The position numbers were made by a program, and so were the translations under genes. The notes under the pieces were generated by a model. That model had not been told where the DNA came from. It searched no databases and worked only from the letters and a program-made list of their open reading frames with translations. A stretch of 64,000 bases of DNA, from contig CM018051.1 of NCBI GenBank assembly GCA_008638375.1, forward strand, positions 33,515,740 through 33,579,739, written 5' to 3'. The stretch comes from Nyssa sinensis. Lineage: Eukaryota > Streptophyta > Magnoliopsida > Cornales > Nyssaceae. Of this stretch, positions 20,203-64,000 are shown one piece after another (the stretch's first letter is position 1; every line of letters starts with the position of its first letter).

Positions 20203-20216
20203 GAAGAGGGGTAGGA
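20203..20216 (+). other. Polypurine tract of element B
   Basis: GAAGAGGGGTAGGA directly precedes the 3' LTR at 20217. Confidence 0.8.
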
Positions 20217-23254: not shown

Positions 23255-23539
23255 CTATTTAGTCGCCTTTCCTTTGGCTTCCTTCAACTTGTGAAGCCAT
23301 TCTTGCAGCGTTTCGGTGTCCTCCTGTTTCTTAATCTTTTTTGCTGCTAGTTGCTCCTTGGTTATAGTCTTGTAAATGAAGGGGCGAACGCTGCACACTT
23401 CATTTGTTTTGGCAATCCGGATATATTTCTGAACTACCTGGAGTTGTTTTTCTAGCTTCTCCCGGAAAACTTTCTGTTTCGGATCATTTGCTATTTGTGC
23501 CCTTGTCATCATTGGGGGAACTTCTCGTTCTTGGTTCAT
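23255..23539 (-). CDS. 94-codon open frame inside LTR C copy 2, origin unknown
   Basis: It is an intact frame from ATG to TAG, on the same strand as its LTR, encoding a Lys/Glu/Gln-rich, probably helical protein (MNQEREVPPMM at the start). It lies just upstream of the LTR's second splice-donor-like site and just after a possible acceptor ('tttaaacag' read on the minus strand). A copy with the same length is in LTR C copy 1, but LTR C copy 3 (29930-33950) lacks it. It looks like a host gene fragment or exon captured by a C subfamily. I do not recognise the protein, and it may not be translated. Confidence 0.35.
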   Translation of the reverse strand: MNQEREVPPMMTRAQIANDPKQKVFREKLEKQLQVVQKYIRIAKTNEVCSVRPFIYKTITKEQLAAKKIKKQEDTETLQEWLHKLKEAKGKATK

Positions 23540-24592: not shown

Positions 24593-24611
24593 TGACGTCA
24601 TGATGACGTCA
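24593..24611. promoter_or_regulatory. Paired TGACGTCA palindromes (bZIP/TGA-type sites), copy 1
   Basis: TGACGTCA-TGA-TGACGTCA: two perfect C-box/CRE-like palindromes three bases apart, within LTR C copy 2. Plant bZIP factors bind this core. The same pair recurs in the other C LTRs. Function is inferred. Confidence 0.45.
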
Positions 24612-26418: not shown

Positions 26419-27472
26419 ACCACATGTAAATAAACCGACCGAACCGGTTGCTTTATGACTAGACCGGACCGGTTCACTTCCAATTTAACTGAACCCTTTG
26501 GTTTTTATAATTTAATTAAAAATCAAATAAACCAAGACTTTTGGTTATTACGGATTGACCCCTGGGCTTCAGAAAAATTATACTGAGGCCCAACTGAGGG
26601 AAAATTTATGCAATAAGGCCCCTGAAAAAATAATTAAATAATTAAATAATTAATTTAATTATTTAATGAATAAAGTTAAATTACTATTTTGCCCTTGTGG
26701 CATAAATAGAGCAAATGAAGTCCAAATTAAACATATGAATAGTGTATCTTTACTATTTTGGATATTCTGAGACTAATGGTAGGGTCCGTTTTACGAGACG
26801 GGGCCCAAAAAATAAAGACACGTAAAGGGGTAAATGACCAAAATACCCCTTGACCAAAATTAACAAGTTATTAGTGTATTCTTACTATCTTGGACCTTCT
26901 GAGTCCAATGGTGAGGTCCACGACATGAGACGGAGTCCCGAAAAATAAAGACACGTAAAGGGATAAAAAGACCAAAATATCCCTGGTACCCCTAAAGCCA
27001 AAATGAAATCAGAGAAGGTCTAAATCGACTTTCCTTGACATCCCGGACTCAAAAATGGAGTCCAAATTACGAAACGAAGTACAGAAAAATATGACACGTA
27101 AAACGATAAATGACCATTTTGTCCTTTTACATATAACAGTCCGAATAAAATGTTAGGAAAGCCTAAACCGACTTTCTTCGACACTCCGGACTCAATGGTA
27201 GAGTCTATTCGACCTAAAGAAATGTCTAAAATAAAAAGACATAAAATTTGATGAATAGCATCTGTCAGATGACTATAAATTAGAGTAATGCCAAAGTACT
27301 AATACTAAGGCAAGTACGAGAAACGAAATACGAAAAGACACGACACGTAAACATGTCAAATAAATAACTTTACATTAAGGTTAATGGAGCTACCAGAAGA
27401 GTATGATTGTAGAAATCTATTTTCTTGACACGTTAAATTATGTTTTAAACAGAGAATTAAATAGACACAAAA

Positions 27473-27757
27473 ATGAACCAAGAACGAGAAGTTCCCCCAA
27501 TGATGACAAGGGCATAAATAGCAAATGATCCGAAACAGAAAGTTTTTCGGGAGAAGCTAGAAAAACAGCTCCAGGTAGTTCAGAAATATATCCAAATTGC
27601 CAAAACAAATGAAGTGGCCTGCGTTCGCCCCTTCATTTACAAGACTATAACCAAGGAGCAACTAGCAGCGAAAAAGATTAAGAAATAGGAGGACACTGAA
27701 ACGCTACAAGAATGGCTTCACAGGTTGAAGGAAGCCAAAGGAAAGGCGACTAAATAG
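27473..27757 (+). pseudogene. Broken copy of the 94-codon LTR C frame
   Basis: It aligns end to end without indels with the frame at 23255-23539 but has two internal stops (a TAA and a TAG, both at Gln codons of the intact copy). Same position within the LTR, just before 'gaggtgagtaacc'. Confidence 0.7.
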
Positions 27758-30505
27758 ATCGAAAACCCGAAGTACGAGGTGAGTAACCTTGTGTTTGAAT
27801 TGAAGATTTAACTCCATGGATTTGAAAAAGTTTTAAGTTCAAAGATGTGAAGTATTTGAAGTTTCAAATTCAGTATTTACATGATTCAGCTTTTAATTGT
27901 ACTGTTTTATAACTCTATTATGACATGCTCAGTGATTGGTATCTATCATAGTTTTCTTCAAACATATTTCAGCATGTCTAAAGTTTTAAATGCCAAATTA
28001 TGTTAAATATCCTGAATTTGATAGTTACAAGTATTTGAAGTCCTATTGTAGAAATTATACATTTCATGTTTTTAAATACTCATGAAAGTATCTATTGAAG
28101 AAGTTATGTGATAAATGTTTTACAAGATAAACGGTACTAAGTACCACCCCCTATGATGGTTGAAATCCTTCGGGATTCAACAGTAAATGCCCGGTAGCAG
28201 GATCTAATCCCCCAGGCAAATGAGATCGACAGTATTGGCAGTAAAATGGGAGTCTGGTTCGAAACAAATTCCACCTAATTAAAGAGAAAAGTTGACAAAG
28301 TGATTTGGAAATGAAAGCATGTTTTACCCTCATTTTCAAATACATATTTATGTGATTTAAAGTTTATATACTTTATCTGATGAAGTACGAGTTTTGCTTG
28401 AATACTTTAAATGTTTCCAAGTTATTTGAAATGCATATGTTTTGAGTTATATACTCTATTTGACGAAGTACGAGTTTAGCTTGAATACTTTAAATGTTTC
28501 CAAGCTATCTGTTTATGAAATGCATATGTTCGAGTTATATACTCCATTTGACAAAGTATAAGTATAGCTTGAATACTTAAAATGTTTCAAAGCTATTTGT
28601 TTTAAGAATGCATGTACTCTGTATTCTAAATTGTATAAGCAATTGGTAGTGAATGTTTTACAACTCTTATGTACTAAAAACCACTGCTAATTGAAAACCC
28701 CATGACGAACACTGGAATTGCTCACAAGCTTAGACTAGCTTACCCGGACTTTGTTCGGACCCCTCTTTCAGGTGATGCAGCAGACAGGGTCTTAAGAACG
28801 ACGATGATGAGTCTAGCTATTTTTGGAAGGATGTGTTTAAGTAGTTTCTTTTGAAGAACCTATGAACATTAGTAGTACGTTTTGTATTAATAGACAGAGT
28901 AAGAATATGTAATAAGCCCTCAGGGCAACCGAATATGTATTGTATTAATGTATGAAGTCTTTAAGTTTTATTTATACTCTGAATGTGTAACCATGTATGT
29001 TAAGTATGGAGCAGCAGTATTGGACGGATGTGCATAATTTAAAAATGAGAAAAGAAAAGAAAGAAAAATTTTTTTTCACGCTTCCGTAATCATGTGTTGC
29101 ACATCTATTCCATACCGCTGCAGATGCGAGCCTTGTCTCGAGGCCTTCGGGTCTCGGGGCGGCAGTCGCGATCCGATAATCTGCAGAGGGTGGGTTTCGG
29201 GTCGTGACACTTGAGGTCTCTATAAACCAAATGGAGTTTGGATTCGATGGTTCCAGACCTGTTGTAAGCAAGGTCCTTCAATGGCGGTCTTCGTGGGTTT
29301 CGAGGTTTCAGGCAATTTTGAGACCAAATTTCATGCTTTTCTTAGTTTAAATATACTCTAAACATCATATATACATAGATCAAAGCCTAAACAGTTCATA
29401 TGTAAGTAAAATTCTAGAGAGAGAAAATCTGATGTTTTGTAGTTTTTACCTCCGAATGGTATTCTCCCTTATTCCTTCTGTTCCTTCTTCCTTCTTCTCA
29501 GAACTTCTTCCTTCTCTCTATTTCTATTTCTCTCCCTCTGTGTCACGACCCGAAACCCACCCTCTGCAGATTTCGCATCACGACTGCCACCCTCAGGCCC
29601 GAGGATGCTTGGGCGAAGGCTCGCATCTACAGCGGTATCGAATAGATGTGTTTCAAGTGGTTGCGGAAGCCCGAAAAACTTTTTTCTTTTCTTTCTTATT
29701 TAAAATTTGCACATCCGCCCGGTACTGCCGCTCTTCACATTTTGGTATACATGTATAATCATACATTCAGAGCATATCTAAAAGCTTAAAGACTTTATAA
29801 TATTATATATCACTGCCCTGAGGTCTTAATACATATTTTGTACTGTCTACTACTACAGGAGTTCGTACTAAAAATTCACATGGCTTCATAAGGAAACTAC
29901 TTAAGTACAACTTCCCAAAATGGCAGATCTGTAATATCCCGACTCGGGATACCGGGTCATATGACACGTATTACGAGAATTAACAAAAATAATTAATTAA
30001 TTTAATTATTAATTAATTAAAATAAAGGAATGTTATATATTAATTAAATAATATATGTATATGTATAAGGTAAAATATGTATGTATGTATATGGAAGCAT
30101 GTATGTATGCAAGTATGTATATGAAAAAGGTGTGAACAGTGTGTGAATGGTGTGTGTGTGTGTCGGCTGGTGTGTGTGTGTGTTGTCTTGTATATATGTG
30201 TATATGTATATATATGTATATATTATATGTATAAATATCATGTAAAATTTAATGCAAAGTAGAAAAGAGAAAAAGTAAAATTAATGAGAAGTGAGGGCTA
30301 TGTAGGGCTATGAAATCAGAAAGAAGAGAGAGAGAGAGAGAGAGAGAGGGAACACGAGAGAGAGAGAGAGAGGTCGGTTCTCTCTTTAAAAGCAAGGCAT
30401 GCAAAGCATGCTTTACTTCATACGAAAGAAATCAGAAAAAGAGGAACTGAGGAGGTAGAAGAAGAGATTTAGAGCAAGAAAGAAAGAGAAAAACAGTGGT
30501 GAAAG

Positions 30506-32471
30506 GTGAACCCATGAAAACTTTTAAAATTCTCTCTCTAGAATATTTTGCATGTGTTAAGAGATTTAGGTTACGTTATGTATATATGATGCTTAAGATA
30601 TGTCTAGAAGTGTATCAAGCACAAAAATTTGCTATGAAAATGACTGAAAATATGAAACCCACGAAAAATCTCCATTGAAGACCTTGCCCATGGCAGGTCT
30701 GAATCGACTTCCTTTAAGCTTGATTTGGCTTATCAAGACTTAAAGTAGATATTATGAGCATGCTAAAAACATATGACCGCGACCATAAAGCTCAAAAAAT
30801 GACCCTCAAATACCAAGTTGCAGGTTACGGGTTTACACCCCAAACCTTGCAACTCATGACTTAATCTATTTCTCTAAATGAAAACTGAAACCTCATGAAT
30901 AGAGGATCATTATGGAACAAACCGTAAGTGATTTGGCTCAGAAATGAGCATGTATGACCGAATTACAGTTCGGACTATCAAGGTTGAAAATGATCAAACG
31001 GGATCCTTTTGAACTCCAAAATGAATGCCAATTGAATTGGTTATACCTTAGGAACGTTTTGGGACAAAAACAATGAGGATCCATGGATCCAAACTGCACG
31101 AAATAGGAAGAAAAGAAATTCAGAAATTAGGGTTTTCAGTCGGTCGAAGTGGGGAAGAAGAAGGCGGGTCAACTCGGCCTTTAAATGAGGCTGAGTCAAC
31201 TCAGACAGGTGGCAGCCTCTGGGCTTGCCACCGAATTAGTAAGATGACGACGTTATGAATGTCGGTTTAAATAAATGGACGCTAGGGCTGACGTCATCAT
31301 GACGTCAGCCACATGTAAATAAACCGGATAGACCGGTTGGGTTGTAACTGAACCGGACCGGTTCACTTAAGATTCAATTGAACCCTCTGGTTTTCTATTT
31401 TATTCAAAATAAAATAAACCAAGACTTTTGGTTATTACGGATTGACCCCTGGGCTTCAGAAAAATTATACTGAGGCCCAACTGAGGGAAAATTTATGCAT
31501 TTAGACCCCTGGAAAAATAATTAAATAATTAATTTAATTATTTAATAAATAAAGTAAAATTACTATTATACCCTTGGGTAATAAATAGAGCAAATGAAGT
31601 CCAAATTAAGCATATGAATAGTGTATCCTTACTATTTTGGATATTCTGAGACTAATGGTAGGGTCCGTTTTATGAGACGGGGCCCGAAAAATAAAAACAC
31701 GTAAGGGATAAATGACCAAAATACCCCTTGACCAAAATTTAACAAGTTATTAGTGTATTCTTACTATCTCGAACCTTCTGAGTCCAATGGTGAGGTCCAC
31801 GACACAAGATGAGGTCCCGAACATAAAGACACGTAAGGGGGGTAAAATGACTAAATTACCCCTAGTACCTCAAAAGTCAAATTAAAAGCAGGGAAGGTCT
31901 AAATTGACTTTCTTTGACATTCCGGACTCAAAAATGGAGTCCAAATTACGAAACGAAGTACAGATAATATGACACGTAAAATGGTAAATGACCATTTTGC
32001 CCTTTTACATATAAAAGTCCAAATTAAATTCTTGGAAAGCCTAAACCGACTTTCTTCGACACTCCGGACTCAATGATAGAGTCTATTCGACCAAAAGAAA
32101 TGTCTAAAATAAAAAGACATAAAATTTGATGAATAGAATCTGTCAGATGACTATAAATTAAAGTAATGCCGAAGTATTAATCCTAAGGCGTATACGAAAA
32201 AATGAAATACGAAAAGACACGACACGTAAACATGTTAAATAAATAACTTTAAATTAAAGTTAATGGAGCTCCCAGAAGAGTATAAATTGAAATAAATTCA
32301 ATTTCTAACACATTAAATTGTGTCATAGGTTAAGAATACGAGTTACGTTAAGTACATATGAATTTATGAAATCATTGTAGGATCTAATACGATTTAAGCA
32401 TAAGTTAAGGAATATCGAGATGATATTACAATGAATGTGAAGTTGATGAGATATTTATGAATTGTTCTTAG
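30506..32471 (+). other. Putative LTR intron (C copy 3)
   Basis: Donor GAAAG|GTGAACC at 30506; acceptor GTTCTTAG|GAAC at 32471. A 55 nt segment and a second donor CAAG|GTGAGTAACC (32527) follow. Splicing is inferred. Confidence 0.45.
31289..31307. promoter_or_regulatory. Paired TGACGTCA palindromes, copy 3
   Basis: TGACGTCA-TCA-TGACGTCA in solo LTR C copy 3. A related single TGACGTCA-like palindrome (GCTGACGTCAGC) is near 45219-45232. Confidence 0.45.
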
Positions 32472-35400
32472 GAACTACAAGGAAAGTGGGAAAGCGCATT
32501 ATTAGCACTAACCCTAAAGAACCAAGGTGAGTAACCTTGTGTTTGAATTGGAGATTTAACTCCATGAATTTGAAAAAGTTTTAAGTTCAAAGATATGAAA
32601 TATTTGAAGTTTCAAATTCAGTATTTACATGATTCAGTTTTTAATTGTTCTATTTTATAACTCTATTATGACATACTCAATGATTAGTATCTATCATAGT
32701 TTTCTTAAAACATATTTCAGCATGTCTAAAGTTTTAAATGCCAAATTATGTTAAATATCCTGAATTTGATAGTTACAAGTATTTGAAGTCCTATTGTAGA
32801 AATTATACATTTCATGTTTTAAATACTCATGAAAGTATCTATTGAAGAAGTTATGTGATAAATGTTTTACAAGATAAACGGTACTAAGTACCACCCCCTA
32901 TGATGGTTGAAATCTTTCGGGATTCAACATTAAATGCCCGGTAGCAGGATCTAATCCCCCAGGCAAATGAGATCGACAGTATTGGAAGTAAAATGGGAGT
33001 CTGGTTCGAAACAGATTCCACCTAATTAAAGAGAAAAGATGACAAAGTGATTTTGGAAATGAAGCAGGTTTTACCCTCATTTTCAAATACATATGTGATT
33101 TAAAGTTTATATACTTTATCTGATGAAGTACGAGTTTCGCTTGGATACCTTAAATGTTTTCAAGCTATTTGAAATGCATGTGTTTTGAGTTATATACTCT
33201 ATTTGACGAAGTACGAGTTTAGCTTGAATACTTTAAATGTTTCAAAGCTATCTGTTTTATGAAATGCATATGTTTTGAGTTATATACTCTATTTGACGAA
33301 GTATGAGTTTAACTTGAATACTTTAAATGTTTCAAAGCTATCTATTTTAAGGAATGCATATATTTTGTATTCAAAGTATACGAACAATTGGCGGTGATTA
33401 TTTTACAACTCTTATGTACTAAAAACCACTGCTAATTGAAAACCCTATGACGAACACTGGAATTGCTCACAAGCTTAGATTAGCTTACCCGGAATTTGTT
33501 CGGACCCCCCTTTCAGGTGATGCAGCAGACAGGGTCTTAAGGACGACGACGATGAGTCTAGCTATTTTTTTGGAAGGATATGTTTAAGTAGTTTTCTTTG
33601 AAGAACCTATGAACACTAGTAGTACGTTTTGTATTAGTAGACAATGTAAGAATATGTAATAAGCCCTCAGGGCAACCGAATATGTATTGTATTAATGTAT
33701 GAAGTCTTTAAGTTTTAGTTATACTCTGAATGTGTAACCATGTATGTTAAGTATGGAGCAGCAGTATTGGACGGATGTGCATAATTTAAAAATGAGAAAA
33801 GAAAAGAAAAAGTTTTTCACGCTTCCGCAATCATGTGTAGCACATCTATTCGATACCGCTGCAGATGCGAGCCTTATCGCGAGGCCTTCGGGTCTCGGGG
33901 CGGCGGTGGCGATCCGGTAATCCGCACAGGATGGGTTTCGGGTCGTGACAAGATCCATCGTCTTCGTCTTCAAATCAAAAACTGCCTTTTGTCATTTACC
34001 TGAAAGAAGGATCCGAACAAAGTCCGAATAAGCTAATCTAAGCTTGTGAGTAATTCCTGCATTCGTCATGGGGTTTTCAACTGGTAGTGATTTATCACTT
34101 GAGAGTTTATAAAATACTCACTACCAATTGTTCGTACAATTTAGAACACAGAATATATGCATTCTCAAAACGGATGGCTTGAAACATTTAAAATGTTCAA
34201 GCTAAACTTATACTTATGAACTTCAAATCATATAACATAACATGTCATTCTTAAATAGAGTATATAAAACTCGAAACATATGCATTTCATAAAACAGATA
34301 TCTTTGAAACAATTAAAGTGTTCAAGCTAAACTCGTACTTCGTTAATAAAGTATATAAACTTTAAAACACATAAATATGTATTTTGAAAATGAGGGTAAA
34401 ACCTGCTTTCATTTTCAAAATCACTTGTCATCTTTTTTCTTTAATTAGGTGGAATTTGTTTCGAACCAGACTCCCGTTTTACTGCAATGCTACAATGGAG
34501 ATATCTCATTTGCCTGGGGGATTATATCCTGCTACCGGGCATGTACTGTTGAATCCCGAAGGATTTCAACCATCATAGGGGGTGGTACTTAGTACCGTTT
34601 ATCTTATAAAACATTTGTCACATGACTTCTTCAATAGATATTTTCATGAATATTTAAAATATGAAATATATAACTTCTGTAATGAAACTTCACTGTTGGG
34701 AATAATCAAATTCAAAATATTTAAAGAGATTTGCATTTGATTTAGACATGCTAAATATTTTCAAGAAAAGAGCTGAATATAAAACATTCATCAAGCATGT
34801 CATAACAGAAGATTTTAAAAGAACGGAATCATATGAAGACTGAATTTGATATTCAAAGGCTGTAATAACTTGAACTTAAAACTTCTTCAAATTCATGGAG
34901 TTAAATCTCCATTTCAAATACAGGGTTACTCACCTTAGTCCTTTTAGGTCACTGCTAAAGTGCGCTTTCCTACTTCCTCCGTAATTCTTAAGAACAATTC
35001 ATAAACAGTCTCATTAACTTCACATTCACTGCAATATCATCTATCGATGTTTCTTAACTTATGCTTCAAGCGTATTTCATCCTAACCGATTTAACTCATA
35101 CTCCTAACCAACGACACAATTTATTATGTTAGAAATTTAATTCATTTCAACCTATACTCTTCTGGTAGCTCCATTAACTTTAATTTAAAGTTATTTACTT
35201 CACATGTTAACGCGTTGTGTCTTTTCATACTTTATTTCTTCGTACTTGCCTTAGTTTAATACTTCGACAATACTTTAGCTTTAGTCATCAGACAGATGCT
35301 ATTCATAAAATTTTATGTCTTTTTATTTTAGACACTTCTTTTGGTCGAATAGACTCTATCATTGAGTCCAGAGCGTCGAAGGAAGTCGGTTTAGGCTTTC

Positions 35401-48606: not shown

Positions 48607-49221
48607 GAACCCAATGGTACCAACATCAGGCTGATGATTATTGAGGTTATGCATGGAAGTACCTAACGCGTTTGAAGGATATCTGTGAATGGAGATAAGC
48701 ATAAATTGTGAGTAACTCGGACTCCTGACTTAGTGTATATTTTCTGCTCTATCTAGATTCATATACTATACTGCTCTATATGCTGAACTGTTTTTATGCA
48801 CAGTACTGTTTTAATGCATATGCTTTCATGCATACTTGTTGTACTACATTACTTGTGGCATGATTCTGTTCTGTCTTGCCTTCTGATATATCTTGTTGAT
48901 TTTGTTCGAGTTTGTTGTTTTGTTACCCGTCCTTGGAGTGCAATCCATTGTACGGTTTAGAAAGTTGCCTTTGGTTGGTCGCATTGTCAGTCGGGAGATC
49001 GGCAAAGCAGCTAATTGGCATTACATCTTTGGCATCCGAGTAGGGTGGGGTGCGGGATGTGACAATGAGGCTTGGTGCATGTGTTTTTATTGGCTAACAT
49101 GTTGGTGCAATAGGGTGATGACACCTCACTTTTTGCAAGAAAACCCCATCATATTTTATGGTTTATATATATATATATATCTATATATATATATATATGA
49201 CGTGGCTATTATAGCACAAAA

Positions 49222-50013: not shown

Positions 50014-53000
50014 TGTAATACCCTGACCCGGGTTAGCACGTATATCGAGGTAGATCGGGTCGGGTAACATACAATCAGTTGTAAATCTGGTTGTTTAAGC
50101 TTTACATCATTATAACAAATGCACTATACGATTTTGGAATGTGAATATTATCAGTTATACGATCAGTGCCGGGCAATAGCCGGGTAACCCAGAAACAAGT
50201 ACCATAATGCGTGTAGGTATGTCGATGCATGCATGTGTACATGTACGTCAATGTATAGACAGTTAAAAATAAATGTATGTATATGTAGTTAAAACTAGTA
50301 TATACATATATATACGAGTATATATACATGTATAAAATGTGTACTTATATAGGTGTATATATATATATAGTATATTATACAACATGTATGCATGTATTAA
50401 AATATACCTATACAAGAAAACAAAGGAAGCTGCCAAGTGCATGCACTGTATGTTATGTGTGTAACAGTTTGTGTAATTGAGAGTGTGTTGGTATGTGTGA
50501 TATTTATATATATATATATACAAATATCTCAAGCCATAAATGCAAAGCTGGATTTGAAAAAGAAAATCAGAAAGTTAGGTCATGGAAAGGGGCTTTAGAA
50601 TCAGGAGAAACCGAAAGGAGAGAGAGAGAGAGAGAGATTGAGGCGGTGAGTGTGATCATGGTAGTGTATATATATATATATACACATCTTGTGTGGGATA
50701 AGAAAAATAGAGAGATTTAAAAGGCTGTGAATGCTTTCAAAGGTTGAGAAAATTGTTGAAAAGAGTCCGAAGTGAGCCAAGAGGAACACAGAAGTAGAAG
50801 AAGTGCACTGCACCAAAAAAATCAGAATTTAAAAGGTGAGTAGTTGTTTCTGTTTTAAAATTTTCTAGCATGATTCGTTTGATTCTGAATATAAGTTCTA
50901 AACAAGCATGAAACATAGATTCAGTAGCAAAAAGAATCATCTAAAATGATTCAAAAACCAGTGAGCAATCCCCAGTTACAGGTTTTAGGGTGTTTGAATT
51001 TCATTTTATATTTTATGCAGAAAATGTTAATTTAATGACCTAGAGGTGATCCTATAAGGTACAGAAATCAAACTGAAACCAAATTAAAGTGAACCAGTAG
51101 GATAAAGGGGTTGAAAACGGTAGAAACCAGGTCATCAGAGTTTTGGATTTTTCCATATTCGTGGAAAGTTAGTGATCTAAATGGAAAACTAAATTTAGAT
51201 TCATGATCTCCATAAAAAGATAAAGAAAACTGCATTGAACTAGGTAAAAAAACCCATCGGAAAACATTGGCCGTCACCGGAAGTGGTGACGGGGAACCAT
51301 CGGAACCCTACCGGCGTATTGCTAGGGAAGAAGGAGATTGTCTGAGCTTGGGTTCGGGTCATGGGTCAGATCCGGGTCAGGACCCAACCGAAACAGAAAC
51401 GGGTATGTCAAAACGGCGTAGTATTACTTAAGTTTAAAAGAATTTTAAATTGAATTGGGAGTGTTTGGTGACACAGATAAGAAATAGAAATTGAGACTGA
51501 AACACGAATAAGGATATTCTATCCCTGTTCCGTGGATATCTACTGTTTGGCTATCCTTAGTTAGGATAGGGTTTTCCAAAATTATAAATGAACCCAGAAG
51601 TTATGGAAATTGTAATTTGACCCTAAACTTTTAGTTATTATGATTTGACCCCAGAATAAAATATTAATTTAATTAAAAATAATGAAAAATTACAAAAATA
51701 TCACTAAGTCAAAAAGTAGTCAAACGGACTCCGATTAAAATAAAAGAATAGTGAAATTTTCTTATTTTGAGCATTTCGAAATCAACCGTGGAGTCCAATT
51801 TTTGAAAAGAGGTCTCGAGAAATGAGAACCTGTAAGAGTGCAAAATGACCATTTTATCATTTTTAGCACAGAAATACAAATTGAATTTCGCGAAAGCCTA
51901 AACTGACTTTCTTCGATATTCCGGACTCAATGGTTGCGTTTATTTTTGTAACAGAGGAACTTAAGATATAAAGGCATAAAATTTGATGAATAGCAAAATT
52001 CAAGTAGCGATAGACTGAAACGTGTTTCATGGATTTTAGGAACACGGAAGGGTAAAGAGAAGGCAGTCTAAATCCTTCAAGTTCATAGACGGTAAGAGGT
52101 AAGTAAAATTCGATTTCTGCATATGTTACATTCCAAGCCATGTCATAGTTCCTTGTATATATATTCTCTATTGTACTCTATATACACATACCAGTATTTA
52201 TTAGTCACATTGATATTGCCCTATCATGTGGGAACCAATTGTTGATTTCTACATATATCTCAATCATGATTGTACACTTGTGCATGAATTTTTTTTGTAC
52301 AGATGTATCTAGGGCCCTGAGAGCCAGACAATTTTATTCGAAGTAGTCTAGTAACCGTAGTTTAGCTAACTATCGTTACGTAAGATTTTCCTAGAACCAG
52401 TTATGATTCCATTATACTCTTCGTGGAAGATAGCATGATCTTGATATATTATTAGTACCGGATTTATGCCTAGTCACATCTCCATCTTATGTTATTTATG
52501 ACCTTCGGGTCCAGGTTCTGAGTGGAGCTGAATACGAGCTCAGGGGAGAGCAGTATATATACAGCCAAGTGGAACATTTACTACGTTGTTATGTGAGGCA
52601 TGGAACGTAGACTTACATTTTTAGATTGGTGCATTAGGCAACCAGGGGGTAGCCGGGCCCCACCAGTACCAGTGCATCTCAAATTTAATTGATATCACTA
52701 TCATTTATTGTTGATATTCATAGCTTGATCATGTTATATTATTATTCAATGATCATGAGATTTTTACAACTTTCAATACAATGCTTACATTTCATACTTG
52801 ATATAGCTTATGATTGTAGCAGTATGACATTGTTAGCATAACAGATTGATTTTCTTATCATTTGACTTATATCATCTGATATTGAATATATGTATTCGTT
52901 GATTGGCTAGCATTCTTTTATAACTTGTGCACATGGCAGAGTAAATGACTACTTACTGAGTTTTTATAGCTTATCAGATACTACACAACATTTGACTTGT

Positions 53001-53339
53001 AGGCACAGATATCGAGGACAGACCCTAGAGTCTGATAGCTAGGAGGTGGACATTTGCTTTTGAAGTTGCAGTGTAATACTTAGTACAGATAGGCTTATAG
53101 CTCTCCCACGTTATCTACGTCTTAGGGATGAACAGTTGTATTAAGAAATTTTGTATTTTGCATTTTGTAAACATTATATAAATCACATGCAACTTCTATA
53201 ATTTTTTTTTTTTACATTTTAGTTGTTGCATGTTAGTAGCACTGATTGTGTAGCAAGTTGAGACCCTTGGTTCGACAAGCAGCGTCGGACCGGGCGTCGC
53301 GACACGAGATCTGTATAGGGTGGGTCTCGGGTCATGACA
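50014..53339 (+). repeat. 5' LTR of element A
   Basis: TGTAATACCCTGACCCGGG to GGGTCTCGGGTCATGACA, 3326 bp. It has TA-rich and GA-rich (50617-50638) stretches in the first 700 bp, a GT-AG block (50836-52039), a 59 nt segment, and a second donor AGAG|GTAAGTAAAA at 52099. Confidence 0.92.
50836..52039 (+). other. Putative LTR intron (A)
   Basis: Donor AAAAG|GTGAGTAG; acceptor GGATTTTAG|GAAC; 1204 nt. The same layout is in A', A2, C and B. Splicing is inferred from sites and from the spliced-looking B copy. Confidence 0.5.
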
Positions 53340-53342
53340 GCT

Positions 53343-53354
53343 TGGTATCAGAGC
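53343..53354 (+). other. Primer-binding site (tRNA-iMet) of element A
   Basis: TGGTATCAGAGC, three bases after the 5' LTR end. Confidence 0.93.
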
Positions 53355-53495
53355 ATCCTAGGTAACACAGTGGTTCATGGGAGATAGACTAAGGTACTAG
53401 TATTATAGATGCCCAAGTAGAGTCAGTAGATAGAAACTGACATACAATATTAGACTCTTAAATATATGAAACTGATCTCTAACCAACTGCTGAAA

Positions 53496-54620
53496 ATGGT
53501 GCACACCCGTATTACCACACCACTAGATGAGGCTAATGCCCACATAGCACGTTTAGAGCAACTAATGGACAGGCTTATACAAAATACGCCTCAAAACCAG
53601 GCGGGTCCCAACACTTCAGCCCAACAAGAGCGACAGGCACCACCTGTGGCACACATAGTACGTGAGGAGAACGAGAGGGGTTAGGCACATCTTTACAAAC
53701 AGTTCCAAGCACTACGACCCTCTACGTTCGACGGTACCAGGGGCCTTACTTCAGCAGAAGAGTGGAGGCTTGAAATGGAAATGATCTTTGAGATAATGGA
53801 TTGTACCAGGGTACAGAGGGTAGCCTCTTCTACTTTCACTTTCAGAGGGATGGCTCACGAGTGGTGGCTACTACAGAAAGCCAGGGAGCCTCAGATGACA
53901 TGGGACCGATTCGTAGTGGTCTTCAATCAGAAGTACTTTCCCAGGGACGCCAAAGATTAAAGAGTCGCAAATTTCTTTGTCTTACAACAAGGGAACTTGA
54001 CGGTGGAAGAATATGAGGCCAGATTTACACAGTTAGTTAGATTTGCTCCTACTGTCTTAGAAGACGAGCACGAGAAAGCCCGTAAGTTTGAGGGCAGTCT
54101 TCGGTGGAATATTAGGGACAGGGTTAAACCCCTACAGTTAGCCACTTATGATAAAGTGGTGAGCATTGAAAAGATCATAGAGCAGAGTGGTGAGGAGTTT
54201 TCTAAAAGAAGGGCAAACCCAGTACCAAGGCCACCAGGAAGTCAGAATAAGGGGTCGATTGGGAGCCAGGGCAGAGGAATAGGACCTACCTTTACTTGGC
54301 CAGAAGTAGGATCAACACCTTGGAGTTCTGGACCCAGACCATCAAGGGTCAATTCCACTAGTGGGAGTGTAGTTCAATGCTCCACCTGCCACAGATGACA
54401 TAAGGGGCCGTGTCAGGTTAACTCTCGTGCTTGCTATTTGTGTGGTTAGGAAGGGCATTTCAAGAATAACTGCCCTCAGAAGACCCAGTCAATCGGGAGT
54501 ACAGCTGGTACCCCATTTACCTCAGCAGCCACGACTGCAGCTGCAGCACAGCCTCGAGGTAGTAGACAGAGAGCTGAGCCGCAGCGCTCAGAGAGGGTTT
54601 TTGCACTAACACTTAAAGAT
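53496..54620 (+). pseudogene. gag: gag of element A, broken by stops
   Basis: The start MVHTRITTPLDEANAHIARL fits Tekay gag; an in-frame ATG at 53466 is a less likely alternative. The retrotransposon gag domain follows (STFDGTRG...AEEWRLEMEM, then FRGMAHEWW and FNQKYFPRDAKD). The CCHC knuckle CYLCG...GHFKNNC is at 54432-54473, with a stop inside it. Stops near 53683, 53958, 54396 and 54447 are all in one frame, with no frameshift. Gag forms the virus-like particle and its knuckle binds the RNA. Confidence 0.85.
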
Positions 54621-56500
54621 ACACAGGCCACCACTTCAGTAGTCATAGGTACTCTTCATATTTGCTCCTAGCATGCTAGAGTACTCTTTGACACTGGCTC
54701 TACACATTCATTCATATCACCAGTATTTGTTGCTAGACTGAATATAGAAATAGCACCCTTAGGTTACATGTTAATCATTTTTATGCCTTCAAGAGAGTCA
54801 TTATGTAGCAATAATATATATCGAGCATGTAAGGCTCAGATCGGAGACTCACCTTTATTAGCCGATCTGATACCGTTAGATATTTGTAGCTTTGATGCTA
54901 TACTCGGTATGGACTGGCTAGTTGTGAATCATGTATCTATAAATTTCGTGGCCAAGACAGTCAGTACACATAAACCCGGATGTCCGAGCATCCAGTTTGA
55001 TGGGACAGGTGTAGCTACCCCACCCTATTTTGTATCTTCTATCCAAGCTAGACGTTTATTACATAAGGGCTGTCATGGGTTCTTATGTAGCGTTCTGGAC
55101 ACTCACTCACAACAGCCACCCTTAGATCAGATCCCCACTGTTAGAGAATTTCTCGAAGTCTTCCTAAATGACTTGCCAGGAATGCTTGTGGATAAAGAGA
55201 TAAAGTTTACTATTGACGTGCAGCTAGGTACCTCCTCGATATCCAGAAATCCTTACCGTATGGCACCAGTAGAGTTGAAGGAGTTGAAACTCCAGTTACA
55301 GGACCTATTAGAAAAAGGATTCATCAAACCTAGTTCTTCACCGTGGGGTGCCTCGGTGCTGTTTGTAAAGAAGAATGATGGGACCATGCGGTTATGTGTT
55401 GACTACCATGAGTTGAATAAAGTCACCATAAAAAAAAAAAATACCCTTTGTCAAGGGTAGATGATTTCTTCGACCAGTTGAAGGGAGCATAGGTCTTTTC
55501 TAAGATTGATTTGAGGTTCGGGTACCACCAACTGAAGGTACGATCGGCAGATATTGAAAAGATGGCTTTCAGAACCCGTTACGGTCATTATGAGTTCTTA
55601 GTAATGCCATTTGGGCTCACAAATGCCCCTGCTGCATTCATGGACCTGATGAATAGGGTTTTCAAGCCACATCTGGATGACTTCGTGATCGTGTTCATAG
55701 ACGACATCTTGGTTTATTCCAAGAGTCATGAGGAACATGAAATGCATCTGAGAAAGGTTCTACTGAAGTTGAGGGAGCAGAAACTTTACGCTAAATTTAA
55801 GAAGTGTGAGTTCTGGCTCCCTAACATAGCATTTCTAGGACATGTGATTAGTAAGGAGGGAATCTCTGTGGATTCCCAGAAGATCGAGGCAATTATAGAT
55901 TGGCCTCGGCCTACCAATGTCACGGAAGTGCGAAGTTTCATGGGATTGGCTGGCTATTACAGAAGGTTTGTCAAAGATTTCTCGAAAATAGCTATGCTAA
56001 TTATACAACTGACTAGGAAGGATGTTCCATTTATCTGGATATAGGAGTGAGAGAAGAGCTTCCAAGAGCTCAAGGACAGACTAGTCACAACTCCGATCTT
56101 GACAGTGCCAGATGGAACCGAGGGGTTCGTTATTTATAGTGATGCCTCACTGAAGGGCTTGGGATGTGTTTTGATACAGAGTGGAAGGGTAGTAGCATAT
56201 GCTTCATGTTAGTTGAGGCCACATGAGAGAAACTACCCGACACACGATCTTGAGTTAGTAGCCATTGTTTTTGCCTTGAAGATTTGGAGGCATTACTTAT
56301 ACGGAACGACGTGTGAACTTTTCACTGATCATAAAAGCCTCAAGTATCTGTTCACACAGAAGGAACTCAATATGAGACAGTGTCGTTGGTTAGAACTAAT
56401 CAAGGACTACGGGCTCAGCATTCAGTACCACCCAAGGAAAGCAAACGTAGTAGCTGACGCTCTTAGTAGGAAGTCATTATGGAGTTTGGCTTGCTTGTTG
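54621..56500 (+). pseudogene. pol: Protease, reverse transcriptase and RNase H of element A, broken
   Basis: The protease active site [13 protein letters not shown] is at about 54681-54719, intact. The RT starts near 55160 ([20 protein letters not shown]) and continues with [27 protein letters not shown] and the catalytic FIDDILVYS (near 55693). RNase H shows [24 protein letters not shown] and TDHKSLKYL and ends in [10 protein letters not shown]. Damage: a frameshift in the A run at 55429-55441, and stops near 54669, 55490, 56042, 56048, 56210 and 56507. All catalytic Asp residues that I can see are kept. Confidence 0.88.
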
Positions 56501-56527
56501 ACTACCTAGATAGAGATACTAAGAGAC

Positions 56528-57650
56528 TTGGTGGATATGGAGATAGAGGTAGTTCTGCCCAGCTCTGAGGCATTGTGTGCCAACGTCACAGTCAATTTAT
56601 CGATTTTGGATAGGATTAGAGAGCTGCAGGCCCAGGATGAGAAGCTTTCCAAACTTTGTCAAGAAGTTGAGTCAGGCATAGACTTAGAGTTTTCAGTAAA
56701 AGATGAGACGTTATGCTACCAAAGCAGGATCTGTATACCTAATGTGCCAGAGCTGAGAAGGGAGATTCTTCAAGAGGCACACAGTTCGAGATTTTCCCTA
56801 CATCTAGGAAGCACCAAGATGTATCACAATGTTAGAAGTACATATTGGTGGACTGCGATAAAGCGTGACATAACGGAGTACATAGCACAATGCACCAAGT
56901 GCCAGCAGATCAAGGTAGAGCACTAGAAGCCTGGTGGACTTCTATAGTCTCTACCTATTCCCAAGTGGAAGTGGGAACACATTACGATGGACTTTGTGTT
57001 AGGATTGCCAAAGACACCTAGAGGAAGTGATTCTATCTGGGTCATTGTTGATAGACTGACCAAGACAGCTCATTTCTTAGCAACAAAAATGGCACAGACC
57101 TTGGAAAAACTAGCGGAGTTGTATATCCGGGAAATAGTCAGACTCCATGGAGTCCCGGTATCAATCGTATCCGATAGGGATCCACGGTTTGTATCACAAT
57201 TTTGGAGATGCCTACAGCAAGCTATGGGCACAGAACTGAGTTTTAGTACAACATATCATCTCGAGACTGAGGGTCAGTCAGAGAGGACGATACAGACTCT
57301 AGAGGACTTACTGCAATTCTGTGTCATGGATTTCAAGGGGAGTTGGGAAGATTAGTTGCCACTGGTAGAGTTCACTTACAATAATAGCTTCCAAGCTAGT
57401 ATTGGTATGGCTCCATATGAAGCATTGTATGGCAGGAAATGCCGATCACCCTTATGCTGGGCAGAGGTGGGAGAGAAGAAGGTTTATGGGTCAGAGATAG
57501 TGGAACAAACTACAGGGAAGATACAGCTGATCAAACAACGACTACTAACGACTCAGAACTGATAGAAGAGCTATACTAGTGCTCACAGACGAGAGTTAGA
57601 GTTCGCAGTAGGTGACTACGTATTCTTGAAGGTATCACCCATTAGGGGTG
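56528..57650 (+). pseudogene. pol: Integrase of element A, broken
   Basis: The N-terminal zinc-binding HHCC part ends in CTKCQQIK (near 56900). The catalytic core has Asp in MDFVLGLPKT (56990-56992), Asp in SDRDPRF (57173-57175) and Glu in GQSERT (57281-57283), a complete DDE triad. The stops near 56924, 56945, 57353 and 57560 (two adjacent) prevent translation. The GPY-type region continues to about 57650, where small indels disturb the sequence. Confidence 0.87.
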
Positions 57651-57751
57651 TAGTGGCAAGAAGGGAAAGCTAGGGCCAAGATATATTGGACCCTTTAGGA
57701 TAAAAAAAAAAGGTCGGGCCAATAGCTTACCAACTTGCCTTACTTTCAGAG

Positions 57752-58025
57752 TTGTCACATGTACACAGTGTGTTTCACGTTTTGATGTTGAGGAAGTATG
57801 TACAGAGTGCAGATCAGATAGTAGAGCACGAGCCATTAGACGTCCAAGAGAATCTGAGTGACATAGAGCACTCAATGCAGATTCTGGACCGTCGAGACCA
57901 AGTTCTACGAAACAAGACTATCCCTTTAGTCAAAGTTCTGTGGAAGCATCATCAGATAGAGGAGGCTACTTAGGAGCGAGAAGATGATATACGCGCCAAG
58001 TATCCTCAGTTAATTTCATCTTAGT
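57752..58025 (+). pseudogene. pol: Chromodomain end of element A polyprotein
   Basis: It runs from VHSVFHVLMLRKY through VEHEPLDVQENLSDIEHSMQ and RNKTIPLVKVLW to EREDDIRAKYPQL. The Trp of the EEATWERE motif is a TAG stop (57971). It matches 8424-8729 of the A2 remnant closely. Confidence 0.82.
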
Positions 58026-58075
58026 AGATATGTTTTCCAACCAAGTGTGTACTAAGTTTGGGGACAAACTTATTT

Positions 58076-58089
58076 TAAGGGGGAAAGAA
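58076..58089 (+). other. Polypurine tract of element A
   Basis: The purine run AAGGGGGAAAGAA, ending at 58089, directly precedes the 3' LTR. Confidence 0.88.
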
Positions 58090-58485
58090 TGTAATACCCT
58101 GACTCGGGTTAACACGTATATCGAGGTAAACCAGGTAGGGTAGCATACAATCAGTTGTAAACTGAGCTATTTAAGCTCTACATCATTATACCAAATGCAC
58201 TGTACGATTTTAGAATGTGAACAATGTCAATTATACGATTAGTGCCGAGCAATAGCTGGGTGACCCAGAAACAAGCACCGTAATACGTGTAGCTATGTCA
58301 ATGCATGCATATGTACATGTACGTGAATGTATAGATAGTTAAAAATAAGTGTATGTATATGTAGTTAAAAACTAGTATATACGTATATATACAAGTATAT
58401 AAACATGGGTAAAATATGTACTTATATAGGTGTGTGTGTGTGTATGTATATATATATATATATACAGAGTATATTATACAACATG
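58090..58485 (+). repeat. 3' LTR of element A, first part
   Basis: It matches 50014-50390 of the 5' LTR with substitutions. It stops where solo LTR B inserts, after ACATG. Confidence 0.9.
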
Positions 58486-58901
58486 TGTAACACCCCGACT
58501 CTGTATAATTAATAATTAAATAATTAATTATTAATTAGTACCGGCTTAGGGAATAATTAAGGAAATTAACCTTAATCTCCCGGTGGTCACACTAGACCAA
58601 TAGAATGACAAAACATGTCCGAGAATAGGGTATAATACCCGAACCTAATTATCAATTAATTAGGTGAAATAATGTCAATTTAACACTGACGGAATTCGAA
58701 TTAGTTAATCCCGAAAATATCGAATGACTAATAAATGACACGGAACCTCTGACACTGAAGATAACGGAAATAGAAACTGACCGGAAGAAACCGCACCGAA
58801 AAAGGAGTTACGGAATGAAAGTTATGAGGCAAACATCAGAAACTGAATTAATGCGCAGCCAAACAGGGCCTTAGCCCAAATTGTGGAAAAATGACCAAAT
58901 T

Positions 58902-58982
58902 GGTGGTCAAGGGGAATTGAACCCTTGACCTATGGTGAGAATGAATTCCATCCAAAAAATTTACCAGTTAGGCTACCCATTA
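58902..58982 (-). other. tRNA-like module in solo LTR B
   Basis: The same A box and B box as at 17204-17284, diverged only outside the boxes. Antisense to the LTR. Confidence 0.55.
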
Positions 58983-59455
58983 CTTTGTGCATATGTATGC
59001 AACTTATTTGTATATAACACTGAATTGCCCCAACTTGCCACCCAAATGGACCAATGGGGTTTCATGCAGCCATATATGATATATATAATATGTAATATAT
59101 ATATATATATAGGCAGACTAAATCTGATTGGACCACCCTTTCCTCCAATGGGAGGCCATGCAACAAATTGATGTATAAATATATGCATATGTGTCTATAT
59201 GTATTATATACATATATGAGTGCTTGTGTCTCAGAATTGGAGAACAATTTTCTATGTGTGTGGGTGCTCGGGTAGAAGAGAATGGGTTGAGAGAGAGTCC
59301 ATATGAGGCCATGATGTGTGTTGACCATTGTGTGTCTTCATGTGATACACAAAGGAGGAGAGCTGTGCACAATGTGGCTAGACTGAGGGGCACAACTGCA
59401 CTGGAACAACATGCATGAAACCACAACCGAACCTAAGAGGGTCTGATTTTTAAAG

Positions 59456-61939
59456 GTAAAAATTCGAAAATTTGTAATTTTCTGTTAAGAAATTCTGTTG
59501 CTATTTTCAGTCAATATAAACTACATATTTGAGTTACTGTGAGCTTGGGATGGTTATAGAATTAACTGGGAGGGTCGAATAGGGTAGGAAACACCAAACC
59601 GAGCCCAGGCAGCCATTGATGAAGCTTCCCTGTAGCAGGTCTGAAACGACCGAGACCAAACCAAGTTTGGCCAATCTAGACCTGAACTAGACCCCATTAG
59701 GTGTTTAAAAATCACCATCCGCGACTGAAACTCGCATGAGTAGACCCTCAAAACCGAAGCTATTGCTTTCGGCCAACGAACCCAAACTCGAAAATAGGCC
59801 TCTAAACCGAAATTTATAAATGAGATGTGACAGAGGCTTCTAAACCACGATTTTGGAATGGGAAATTGATCCCCATGGATACACGGTCACAACGAGCCAA
59901 GCCACGTGAGATTTGGTGGAGAAATGAGGCCCCACGACCGAACTGAAACTCTGTGCGATAATCGACTATACAGAGCTTTATCCGTGGATTCGAAGCATGA
60001 AAATGATGCTATGTTGTTGTAATCACTTCCAGAAACCGTTTGGAACCAATAACTGTTGAAAACCGTGCTTGAAATAGCACGAAATTGAGAAAAAACCGAA
60101 CCTGCAAATTAGGGCAACAGTGGGGCATTCGATGGAGAAGACGGAGTCGACTCGGTCGAGTTGACCGAGTCATGCCGAGTTGAGGAACGGCCACTGTGTT
60201 GATGCTACGCCGTTTTGGGTTTGGAAGGTTTTAAATTTAAAATCGAATTCTGGCTGTTTGGCTACGGAAATAATAAATTAAAATCGGGATTTGGGGGCAA
60301 CTGAAACACGGATAGGGGGGCTAATTAAGATTAACTGGAATATTAAATTCCGGTTTACTGAGGGTCAGTGAACCGGTTGGTTCACAATGCATTTGGACCG
60401 GTTCAGCTAGTGAACCCTAAAACCAAAAGGTCTGAACCCCTATTTTCTGAATTTACATTTAAACCCCCAACTGTTTTGTGTAATTGTACTCTGGCCCAGA
60501 TTTTGGATAAAATATACATTTAAGCCCCTGGTAATTAATTAAATAATAAAATAATTATTTTATTATTTTATTAAATAGGTAAAATTACAATTTTACCCCT
60601 GGACATTAAATATGTCAAACGGAGTCCAAATAAATTAAATGAACAGTGTATTTTCACTATTTCAAGCATTCTGGACTCAATGGTACAGTCCGATTTTTGA
60701 AATACAGTCCCGAAAAATACAGACCCGTAAGTGATAAATGACCGAACTACCCCTGATGGTACCCAGACCCAAATAAAAATATCAGATAGCCTATTTTGAC
60801 TATCTCGGGCATTCTGAACTCAGCGGTGAGGTCCGTTTAATGAACTGAGGTCCCGAAAAATACAGACACGTAGGTGTACATGACTGAATTGCCCTTAATG
60901 ATACTCAGGGTCGATTAAACATAACAGACAGTCCAATTTCACTATGTTGGACACTCTGGACCCAATGGTGAGGTCCATTTTATGAACTGACGTGCCGAAA
61001 AATACGACACACGAAATTACCAAATTACCCCTGATACCGTACGAGACCTAAACAAAGTCCGATTGGGACGAAACTGATACCGGTAGGAGCCCAGACACTG
61101 GTGAGACTGTATACTTGATTAGATGACGAATCGGGGTCAGAATTACACAAAACGTAAAATGACCAAAATACCCCTGAGCACTATAAGTGCAAAGTAGAGG
61201 TCGAATAAAGGTCAAACTGATCTGATAAATTATCATAGGGATAATTATGAACACTGAAGGGCTAAATAAGACTCTGAGACAGTCAACGCGTAAAACGAGA
61301 AATGACCGATGTGTCCCGACGATCTAAAGCAAATACCAAATGAAGTCCAAGGGACTTACAAATTTATACATGAGATATATAGGACGTTCTGAGGACCATG
61401 ATAGGGTCCGGGGCAAAAATGACAAAATTATCATTTTGCCCCTAAGACTAAATAAGTACCCAACTGATACCGATTAAAGTCTAAAAGATTTAAAACTTCA
61501 TATATACGATATATGGGATATTCTGAGGACCATGACAGGGTCCGGGATAAGAATGGCAAAATTACTATTTTGCCCCTATGGTTAAAATAAGGACCTAACT
61601 GATACCGATTGGAGTCCAAAGGACGTAGAACTTTGTACTTAAGATATAAAGACTATTCCGAAGACCACGACAGGGTCCGGGACAAGAATGGTAAAATTAC
61701 CATTTTGCCCCTAAGGTTGAATGAGTGCCTGACTGATAACAATTGAAGTCTAAATAACTTAGGATATAATCCTAATAACTGCTAAGCCTAATTAAAGAAT
61801 GAAATAGCCTCGGGTGAGACCCAATGGAAGGGCGGTAGGCTACTAGGCTATCTTAGGTAATCCGATAGATACCTAAGATGACGAATGAGACCTGAATGGA
61901 TGAGTTCTGATCTGTCTGTGATTGATGATTATTATTCAG
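59456..61939 (+). other. LTR intron of family B, retained here and absent from both LTRs of element B
   Basis: The block begins AAAG|GTAAAAATT and ends TTATTATTCAG|GATATAC, so it obeys the GT-AG rule. In element B the two flanks are joined directly (TTTTTGAAG|GATATAC at 17786/17787 and again in its 3' LTR). Inside are blocks shared with the GT-AG regions of the other families: a 'gtcgactcgg' stretch, 'gaaccggttggttcac', an A/T tract, then repeated 'ctcaatggt...gtcc...cccgaaaaatacagac' units (about 60660-61020) and a ~180 bp repeated unit at 61370-61700. Confidence 0.7.
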
Positions 61940-62394
61940 GATATACATGGAGATGCCTGACGTACCTGGAGGTTATCGGATTATTTATGCAAGGAAATAA
62001 GCGTAAAGTTTGTGAGTAACTTCTGACACTGTTTTGATACTGTCCCTTGATTTACTGATCTGTTTTGAATGCAATTAATTAAGTGCAATTATTTAAATGC
62101 ATGCCTTTCCGTACTATATCACTTATGACATGGTTTTAGTCTTTTTAAATAATTGACTATATTCCTGATCCCTGTGCTAGCATTCCGTACTGTTTTGCCC
62201 ATTTTGAACTGTTGAGATAAAATGGATATATTGAACCATTATTTCTGAAATGATTAAATAAACCATGTGATATAGGCAAAGAACAACATTTTTGTTGTAT
62301 CGTACAGCTTTGTATAGTATACTGTCTGAATGCTATATTGTTTAAATGTATGTACTTAATGTACGCCCTTTGTACCACATTCCACGTGATGTGC

Positions 62395-63125
62395 TTGTGT
62401 CCTTCGAATTAGGAATTCCGTTCAGTTCGGTTATGTGCTGTCCGTTAATGATATGTCTGCCTCGATTGATATGTTCCGTCCGGTTCTGACATGTTCCGTC
62501 CGTTAATGATGTTAAGTCCGCCTTGATTGATATATGGTCCAGTTCCGTTATGATCTGTCCGTTGATGATATGTCTTTGCTTTGACTAATGTTTTGTTCTA
62601 TTCGATTCTGTTATGTTCCGTTCATTGATAATGTGTCTGCCTTGATTGATATATGGTCCAGTTCCGTTGTGTATTGTCCGTTGATGATACGTCTGTCTTG
62701 ATTGAAATATTGTTCAGTCCAGTTATGATTAGTTCCGACAGTGATGTGTCCCTGACTTGATTGTTATATTGTTTCTACCCAGTTCCGTTATGTTGTGTCC
62801 TGTTCATGATTTGCCTGTGTCCTGATTAGTGTATTGTTTCCGTTTAGTTCCGTTATAATTTTATCCGTTCGCGATATGCCTTTGCTTGACTGATGTATTG
62901 TTTCCGTTCGATTCCGTTATATTCCGTCCGTTGATGATATGTCCGGCCTGATTGATAGATGGTCTAGTTCCGTTATGTTTCCGTCCTGTTATTAATATGC
63001 CCCTGTCTTGACTGACTTATTGTTCCCACTCAGTCCCGATTGTGATTCGTTCCGTTAATGAAAAGTCTGTGTCTTGACCGATATATTAGCAATAGTTATT
63101 GTTTTGACCGATTGGTTATGTCATG
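62395..63125 (+). repeat. Degenerate minisatellite in solo LTR B
   Basis: Imperfect units on the theme 'ccagttccgttatgttctgt' and 'gatatgtctgccttgattga'. Longer by about 170 bp than the same block in element B. Confidence 0.8.
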
Positions 63126-63823
63126 TTCCGATCCGTTTGTATTGTTTGTTCAATTCTGTTTTATTGTACTAGACTGCTTATGAAATGGACTTATAAAAAT
63201 AGTTATTTTTGAAATGACTAAATTATCCATGTGCCTCGGAAGCACAAAACTGGTTTTGAAACCCATGATAGGGAATCTGTGTTACTCACTGGGCTTATTT
63301 AAGCTCACCCCATTATTCTGACATTTTTTCAGGAATTACCTCCATTGGATTAGAAGGTACTATGACATGACGTGAATAGGCTAAGTGGCATCGCAAGTAA
63401 GGATCTGACGGCACTGAATTGTAGAGACTGGTTTATTGTAGATTGAACCTGGTTATTCCGGTGAGTGGTATGTTTTGACTGACTTGATTGATATATACTA
63501 GATAGACATGGCTCATGGAACTAATGGTACTCTAGAGATATTAGATCTGCTCTGTTGTTATATGCTTGATTTTAGATATGCTCTGAGATTAGAATTATTG
63601 ACTGACTGGATTTAGTCTTGCTCTGTGATACATATTCTTATGATGGATAAGTGAGTTGCATTCCCGTGACACAAAGAAAAAGTTTTAAATTCCGCTGCAT
63701 CTGACCCTACAGTCGGAATGCAATTCGTCGGAAAGTTCAGAATTTGCCTTTGGTTGGTCGCGTCGTGACCGACTGGCAGTCACGTCCTCGACATCCGCGT
63801 AGGGTGGGGTTCGGGATGTGACA

Positions 63824-64000
63824 ACATGTATGCATGTATTAAAATATACCTATACAAGAAAAGAGAAGAAACTGCCAAGTGCATGCACTGTGTGTTGTGT
63901 GTGTAACAGTTTATGTAACTGATAGTGTATTTATATGTGTGATATATATATATATATACACACAAATATCTCAAGCCATAAATGCAAAGCTACATTTGAA
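63824..64000 (+). repeat. 3' LTR of element A, second part, cut by window end
   Basis: It resumes ACATGTATGCATGTATTAAA exactly as at 50382 of the 5' LTR and continues to the window end. Confidence 0.9.

Follow-up and report, generated by a model that had tools for sequence, protein, structure and literature searches.

Does the 64,000-nt stretch of DNA analysed here (the window) record a retrotransposon RNA that was spliced within its own LTR and then copied back into the genome? The question is raised by two insertions of one LTR family, B. A solo LTR of this family contains a block of 2484 nt with intron-like ends, and a second insertion, element B, lacks this block from both of its LTRs. 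The block could have been removed from an RNA by splicing, deleted from the DNA, inserted into the solo LTR or exchanged by recombination between LTRs. The features of family B are the following (here and below, a slash within a sequence marks an exon-intron boundary or the corresponding junction):

58486 to 63823, + strand: solo LTR B, containing the block; 5338 nt, TGTAACACCCC...GGGATGTGACA, TSD ACATG
59240 to 59455, + strand: predicted exon 1, ending in TTTAAAG; its start was placed from one of several TATA-like matches, 251 nt 5' of the donor
59456 to 61939, + strand: putative LTR intron 1, which is the block, GTAAAA...TTATTATTCAG; 2484 nt
61940 to 62011, + strand: predicted exon 2, from the acceptor at 61939 to the weak donor TTT/GTGAGTAAC
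62012 to 63332, + strand: putative intron 2, 41% T, kept in element B; acceptor TTTTTTCAG/GAATTACC
63333 to 63460, + strand: predicted exon 3, followed by the donor TCCG/GTGAGT at 63461
16787 to 19483, + strand: element B 5' LTR without the block; 2697 nt, junction at 17786/17787
19484 to 20216, + strand: element B internal region; 733 nt, with TGGTATCAGAGC at 19488 and a purine-rich tract 5' of the 3' LTR
20217 to 22903, + strand: element B 3' LTR without the block; 2687 nt, junction at 21206/21207, TSD ACATA

The block lies, to the base, where the original prediction had placed it, and its absence from both LTRs of element B, with the flanks directly joined, was confirmed. Its left edge reads TTTAAAG/GTAAAAATT and its right edge TTATTATTCAG/GATATACAT; the junction reads ...TTTTTGAAG/GATATACATGG in both LTRs of element B. 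The trinucleotide AGG is indeed common to both edges, and this 3-nt microhomology makes four placements of the junction equivalent, one of which gives the GT start and AG end that had been proposed. A single substitution (AAAG versus GAAG) is found four bases 5' of the junction. MAFFT sets the gap 8 nt farther left, where five of eight bases match, while the GT-AG placement, which is the one chosen by BLAST, matches at seven of eight. Given the microhomology, the junction could also result from a deletion.

The identity between solo LTR B and the element B LTRs differs on the two sides of the block, being 89-90% overall in the left flank and 81-83% in the right one (BLAST). This asymmetry would fit an exchange by recombination or template switching, in which the lineage of element B took its block-less LTR from a different LTR and the splicing took place in another element. 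Nevertheless, the seven 60-column bins that surround the junction (59238-62129 minus the block) are 94-100% identical on either side of it, with no switch in similarity at that point, which makes such an exchange very improbable. Identity drops to 67-78% in AT-rich and repeat-rich parts of the LTR. The solo LTR and the element B LTR differ by 28 gap runs, five of them of at least 10 nt, and other deletions of 58, 61 and 66 nt are found in the repeat-rich part. The block itself includes tandem repeats, degenerate and about 134 and 142 nt long.

The direction of the change depends on whether the block is older than its absence. If a mobile element, an introner-like element or a reverse-spliced intron had been inserted into solo LTR B, element B would represent the ancestral state; the block is present in one of the two B-family insertions of the window, and AGG may be read as a 3-bp target duplication. 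Yet when the block was searched sensitively against all other parts of the window, homologues emerged in other LTR families, with strand and order preserved. The relevant features of these families are:

29930 to 33950, + strand: LTR A1 with an intron 1 homologue; candidate donors at 30506 and 32527, acceptors at 32471 and 33516, TSD AGATC
22904 to 25973, - strand: 5' part of LTR A2 with an intron 1 homologue; candidate donors at 25396 and 23233, the remainder of the LTR being at 15687-16786
15687 to 16786, - strand: 3' part of LTR A2; candidate acceptor at 16120
29210 to 29540, - strand: fragment A6b of an LTR A; exon 1/intron 1 candidate donor CGGAG/GTAAAA at 29449
50014 to 53339, + strand: element D 5' LTR, with Ty3/gypsy domains behind it; candidate donors at 50836 and 52099, acceptors at 52039 and 53002, PBS at 53343
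48646 to 49064, + strand: fragment of LTR C; exon 2 homologue GTTATGCATGG behind GATGATTATTGAG, candidate donor GTGAGTAAC, LTR end GGGTGCGGGATGTGACA

Within the block, 60482-61010 is 70.3% identical to LTR A1 over 553 columns (E = 1.8e-55), and 59589-59752 and 60482-61016 respectively match offsets 720-883 and 1537-2063 of A2. When the full solo LTR B was compared with A1, A2 (its 5' part, 25973 down to 22904), A3 and A4, all the matches at E <= 0.001 fell inside the block. Shorter stretches of the block have matches in the element D LTR (51655-51850, E = 2.5e-19). The count covered ten LTR copies or fragments (solo B, element B, A1, A2, A3, A4, A5, A6b, C and D), which are not necessarily independent insertions. 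At least part of the block is present in nine of them, and its exact absence is seen in one, element B, where it concerns both LTRs. Both original edges are visible in three of the nine block-bearing copies (solo B, A1 and D); in LTR C the evidence is a short match in which acceptor-side sequence is joined to exon 2. Fragments near 13.0, 14.9-15.3, 42.5-42.8 and 44.9-45.0 kb also match the block or intron 1 of A1 and were left out of the count, and the 3' LTR of element D lies mostly outside the window. A search for mobile-element ends revealed no inverted repeat of at least 16 nt at the borders of the block. Because the block is homologous to and colinear with LTR A, it must be ancestral: judging from sequence comparison, it is an old piece of LTR in its original place that was lost in the lineage of element B. 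An insertion into solo LTR B was rejected on account of this homology and is hardly credible.

There remains the possibility that the DNA of an ancestor of element B underwent a deletion between the two AGG, mediated by microhomology or by replication slippage, and that the fit to GT-AG is fortuitous. The shared AGG and the 58-, 61- and 66-nt deletions between the same two LTRs speak for it. Its weight depends on how unusual the edges are as splice sites, which were scored with plant-like matrices. According to these matrices, the block has the GT...AG ends and consensus flanks of a U2-type intron: the donor at 59456 ranks in the top 1.0% of the 3657 GTs on the + strand of the window. The acceptor at 61939 belongs to the best 0.24% of the 3701 AGs on that strand and is the second-best AG of solo LTR B. 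As a null, 4 million deletions of 200-4000 nt were placed at random in the window, and 167,571 of them had exactly 3 nt of microhomology. Both site scores were reached by only 2 of these 167,571 deletions and the summed score by 5, which argues against a fortuitous fit. Inside solo LTR B four site pairs are as good (p ~ 1.2e-6), and even allowing for the five gap runs of at least 10 nt among the 28, the chance of finding such good sites stays below 1e-4.

A deletion is more easily reconciled with another test, in which the best four-site chain of each LTR was compared with Markov sequence and was not significant, as the null reached it in 73/300 cases for B, 133/300 for A1 and 49/300 for D. 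The top unconstrained chain uses a different donor 1 in B and A1; it agrees with the sites deduced from homology at four of four positions in D, three of four in A1 and two of four in B, where donor 2 is 4 nt off. Intron 1 is A-rich and not U-rich in B, A1 and D (26-29% T). Since the chain test is not significant, the argument is carried by the exact loss, the homology and the recurrence of the sites, and not by their strength in isolation.

This recurrence was evaluated in the related LTRs. AG/GTRA is aligned at the start of the block in all five LTRs compared (B, A1, A2, A6b and D), in an alignment of stretches cut around sites picked beforehand: donor 1 reads AAAG/GTGAAC in A1, ACAG/GTAAAG in A2, GGAG/GTAAAA in A6b and AAAG/GTGAGT in D. 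Exon 1 aligns poorly upstream of this donor, and GGTRA and the TTCT-rich tract behind it do align. A TATA-like match (TATAAA or TTTAAAA) is located 5' of donor 1 at 121 nt in A1, 119 nt in A2, 120 nt in D and 251 nt in B, with additional matches farther off in A1, A2, B and D and also nearer in D. At the other end, the acceptors of A1, D and B read TTCTTAG/GAACTACAAGG, ATTTTAG/GAACACGGAAGG and TTATTCAG/GATATACATGG, respectively. The acceptor-side boundary of exon 2 is aligned in B, C and A1, and the AG of D is one column off. Acceptor 1 scores weakly in A1 and D, within the top 4-6% of AGs, and is poor in C; its AG has been lost in A4, where there is an AG one base on, and in A5, and other sequence occupies the position in A2 and A3. 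The sites of a U2-type intron are thus kept in homologues, the donor in five of five and the acceptor AG in B, A1, D and, in a poor form, C. The presence of GT and AG at these two edges in A1 and D as well counts further against a deletion with a chance fit, which we consider unlikely. The preferred reading is the loss of the block by splicing, its edges being both splice-like and recurrent.

The block appears to be followed by a second intron. Predicted exon 2 is 55-72 nt long and continues into GTGAGTAAC in B, C and A1 and into GTAAGTAAA in D. The next 0.90-1.32 kb are 36-41% T in A1, D and B, and acceptor 2 is preceded by a conserved motif like CTCACTGGGCTTA...AGCTCACC; in solo LTR B this acceptor (TTTTTTCAG/GAATTACC) is the top-scoring AG. 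Donor 2 is the best or second-best donor in A1, A2, A3, A4, A5 and D, and its score is -2.42 in family B (TTT/GTGAGTAAC) versus 4.97 in A1 and 6.85 in D. The original prediction of an intron in the LTR therefore stands but has to be widened, from one to at least two putative LTR introns that are probably located 3' of the transcription start, as suggested by the TATA-like matches. These putative leader introns seem to be common to several related LTR families of the window.

In A2 (23568-23236, - strand) and A3 (27444-27776, + strand), unrelated sequence stands in place of the exon 2 region, and this replacement ends exactly at the donor AG/GTGAGTAACC common to A1, A4 and A5. In A2 it holds a 94-aa ORF (23539-23255, - strand, MNQEREVPP...), for which there was no Pfam hit and no homologue at E <= 0.001; the same frame contains two stops in A3. 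The replacement looks like a captured or swapped exon.

Element B has the structure expected of an LTR retrotransposon, with TG...CA ends, a 5-bp TSD (ACATA) and TGGTATCAGAGC at 19488, 4 nt past the 5' LTR, in the position of a PBS; we take it to be of the initiator-Met type. Its two LTRs differ by 1 substitution and 10 gap columns, and these near-identical LTRs and the intact TSD bear out its proposed youth. The 733-nt internal region has no gag or pol of its own, the longest stop-free stretch being 106 aa, with no ORF of 150 aa or more; in the absence of an ORF of gag/pol size, element B would be non-autonomous. A strong donor is found near the LTR end in both B copies (CCAG/GTAAGT at 19116 and TCCG/GTGAGT at 63461), and splicing from it into the internal region would take out the PBS. 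LTR B also contains a tRNA-like stretch (58898-58985, - strand), present in both element B LTRs and 100% identical between the solo LTR and element B over 58905-58964, with what we presume to be A-box- and B-box-like motifs (GGTTCAATTCC). ARAGORN found no tRNA, this stretch included, and the 13 Rfam matches up to E = 1 were all under the gathering score, none of them inside solo LTR B.

The LTRs are nested at 9243-36000 and 50014-64000: element B lies in LTR A2, solo LTR B lies in the 3' LTR of element D, and A1 (TSD AGATC) seems to lie inside another LTR A. Element D (50014-58485) is an old Ty3/gypsy relative whose domains extend across broken reading frames and whose LTRs are 85-90% alike in the visible part. 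Its Pfam domains follow the Ty3/gypsy order gag, protease, RT, RNase H and integrase within 53685-57973, with rve under the curated cut-off and no Chromo hit; we presume, as a guess, that it belongs to a Tekay-like lineage.

How would splicing remove the block from both LTRs? When LTR retroelements replicate, the R and U5 of each new LTR are copied from the RNA 5' end. If transcription started at the TATA-like box, intron 1 would lie in R/U5. In an ancestor of element B, an RNA would then have been spliced at intron 1 only and would have kept its PBS, which lies behind the LTR. Its intron-less 5' end would have been copied into strong-stop DNA and transferred to the 3' end, leaving both LTRs of the new copy in the spliced form. 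Since R and U5 come from the RNA 5' end, one splicing event in the leader would be enough for both LTRs. That an RNA was spliced in its LTR-derived part before reverse transcription and strand transfer, as first suggested, is the reading best supported by the sequence, short of proof. We give a probability of about 0.8 to the block being a U2-type intron in transcribed R/U5, the first in a series of two or more putative leader introns, whose exact loss came about through spliced RNA being copied back. We infer the transcription start, the splicing, the reverse transcription of spliced RNA and its timing within the ancestry of element B; the loss may date to any ancestor of element B after its split from solo LTR B, and not necessarily to the last replication.

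As in a processed retrocopy, an ancestral intron has been exactly lost from element B and its flanks joined, an event known from this one insertion within the window. Not all introns were removed, putative intron 2 having been retained. Such partial splicing would be expected, because donor 2 of family B is weak. In element D, assuming the start and the splice sites, the leader before gag, of about 2.75 kb and 48 ATGs, would shrink to 0.64 kb and 7 ATGs once both introns are removed, and a shorter leader with fewer upstream ATGs is a plausible reason for the retention of the introns in this element. A wider scenario, to which we would grant about even odds, is that of a plant-type Ty3/gypsy lineage with a conserved two-intron leader wholly contained in its LTRs. 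In that case, splicing would provide a short leader for translation and unspliced RNA would be the usual template, but partly spliced, PBS-bearing RNA could also be copied, and LTRs could shed 2.5 kb in one replication cycle, leaving two clean LTRs.

LTRs are regarded as the source of promoter, start and poly(A) signals. In deltaretroviruses and foamy viruses the major splice donor is in R, inside the LTR-derived leader; their acceptors are far downstream and splicing removes the PBS, whereas the block does not extend beyond the LTR and the PBS is retained. Ogre, of the Tat lineage of Ty3/gypsy elements of legumes, is similar in being a Ty3/gypsy-like element with an intron and spliced transcripts. 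Nevertheless, Ogre splicing occurs between ORFs (PMC3735527); the block is inside the LTR and not, as in Ogre-type elements, in the internal region, and a spliced copy was seemingly integrated. The barley Ty1/copia element BARE1 also undergoes alternative splicing of its RNA, with a facultative 104-nt intron; this intron is in gag, while in element B a spliced form was apparently copied. It has been argued from the BARE work that retrotransposons must avoid copying spliced RNA (PMC3735527).

The host of the elements described here is probably a flowering plant. Introns are generally absent from plant LTR elements, Ogre and EVADE being among the exceptions (PMC12786077), and in sunflower spliced isoforms were found, with no Tekay elements in the expressed set (PMC7730604). 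Among insect endogenous retroviruses (ZAM, Beagle), splicing in some cases joins env to an exon 5' of gag (PMC12992720), and in the ta-TRIM solo LTRs of Echinococcus, LTR-started transcripts are spliced to downstream exons (PMC4558846). Both differ from the present case in that splicing joins the leader or LTR to downstream sequence, and does not concern an intron wholly in the LTR. The intron-marked reporters (Ty, ONSEN SAKE) lose their intron by splicing and reverse transcription (PMC12786077), but these introns are artificial ones placed in the element and not natural ones inside an LTR. A search of the mostly open-access literature on introns in or near LTRs turned up no intron wholly inside an LTR.

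Closest to the present question is Diaspora, a soybean Ty3/gypsy element with five potential donors predicted in its LTR; its two predicted acceptors flank the start codon, so that none of its predicted introns was confined to the LTR, and a spliced copy was not demonstrated (PMC1142308). According to the same source, an intron 5' of gag had not been described as of 2005, and its authors proposed the copying of an anomalously spliced RNA as a route to one-step change and a way to lose env. If the reading favored here is true, a natural intron wholly in an LTR and its exact loss in both LTRs would indicate that spliced retrotransposon RNA can be a replication template. This would offer a one-step route to changes in LTR length, would make the LTR pair a natural splicing record, and bears on the question asked for Diaspora, the change of retroelements by the copying of spliced RNA (PMC1142308).
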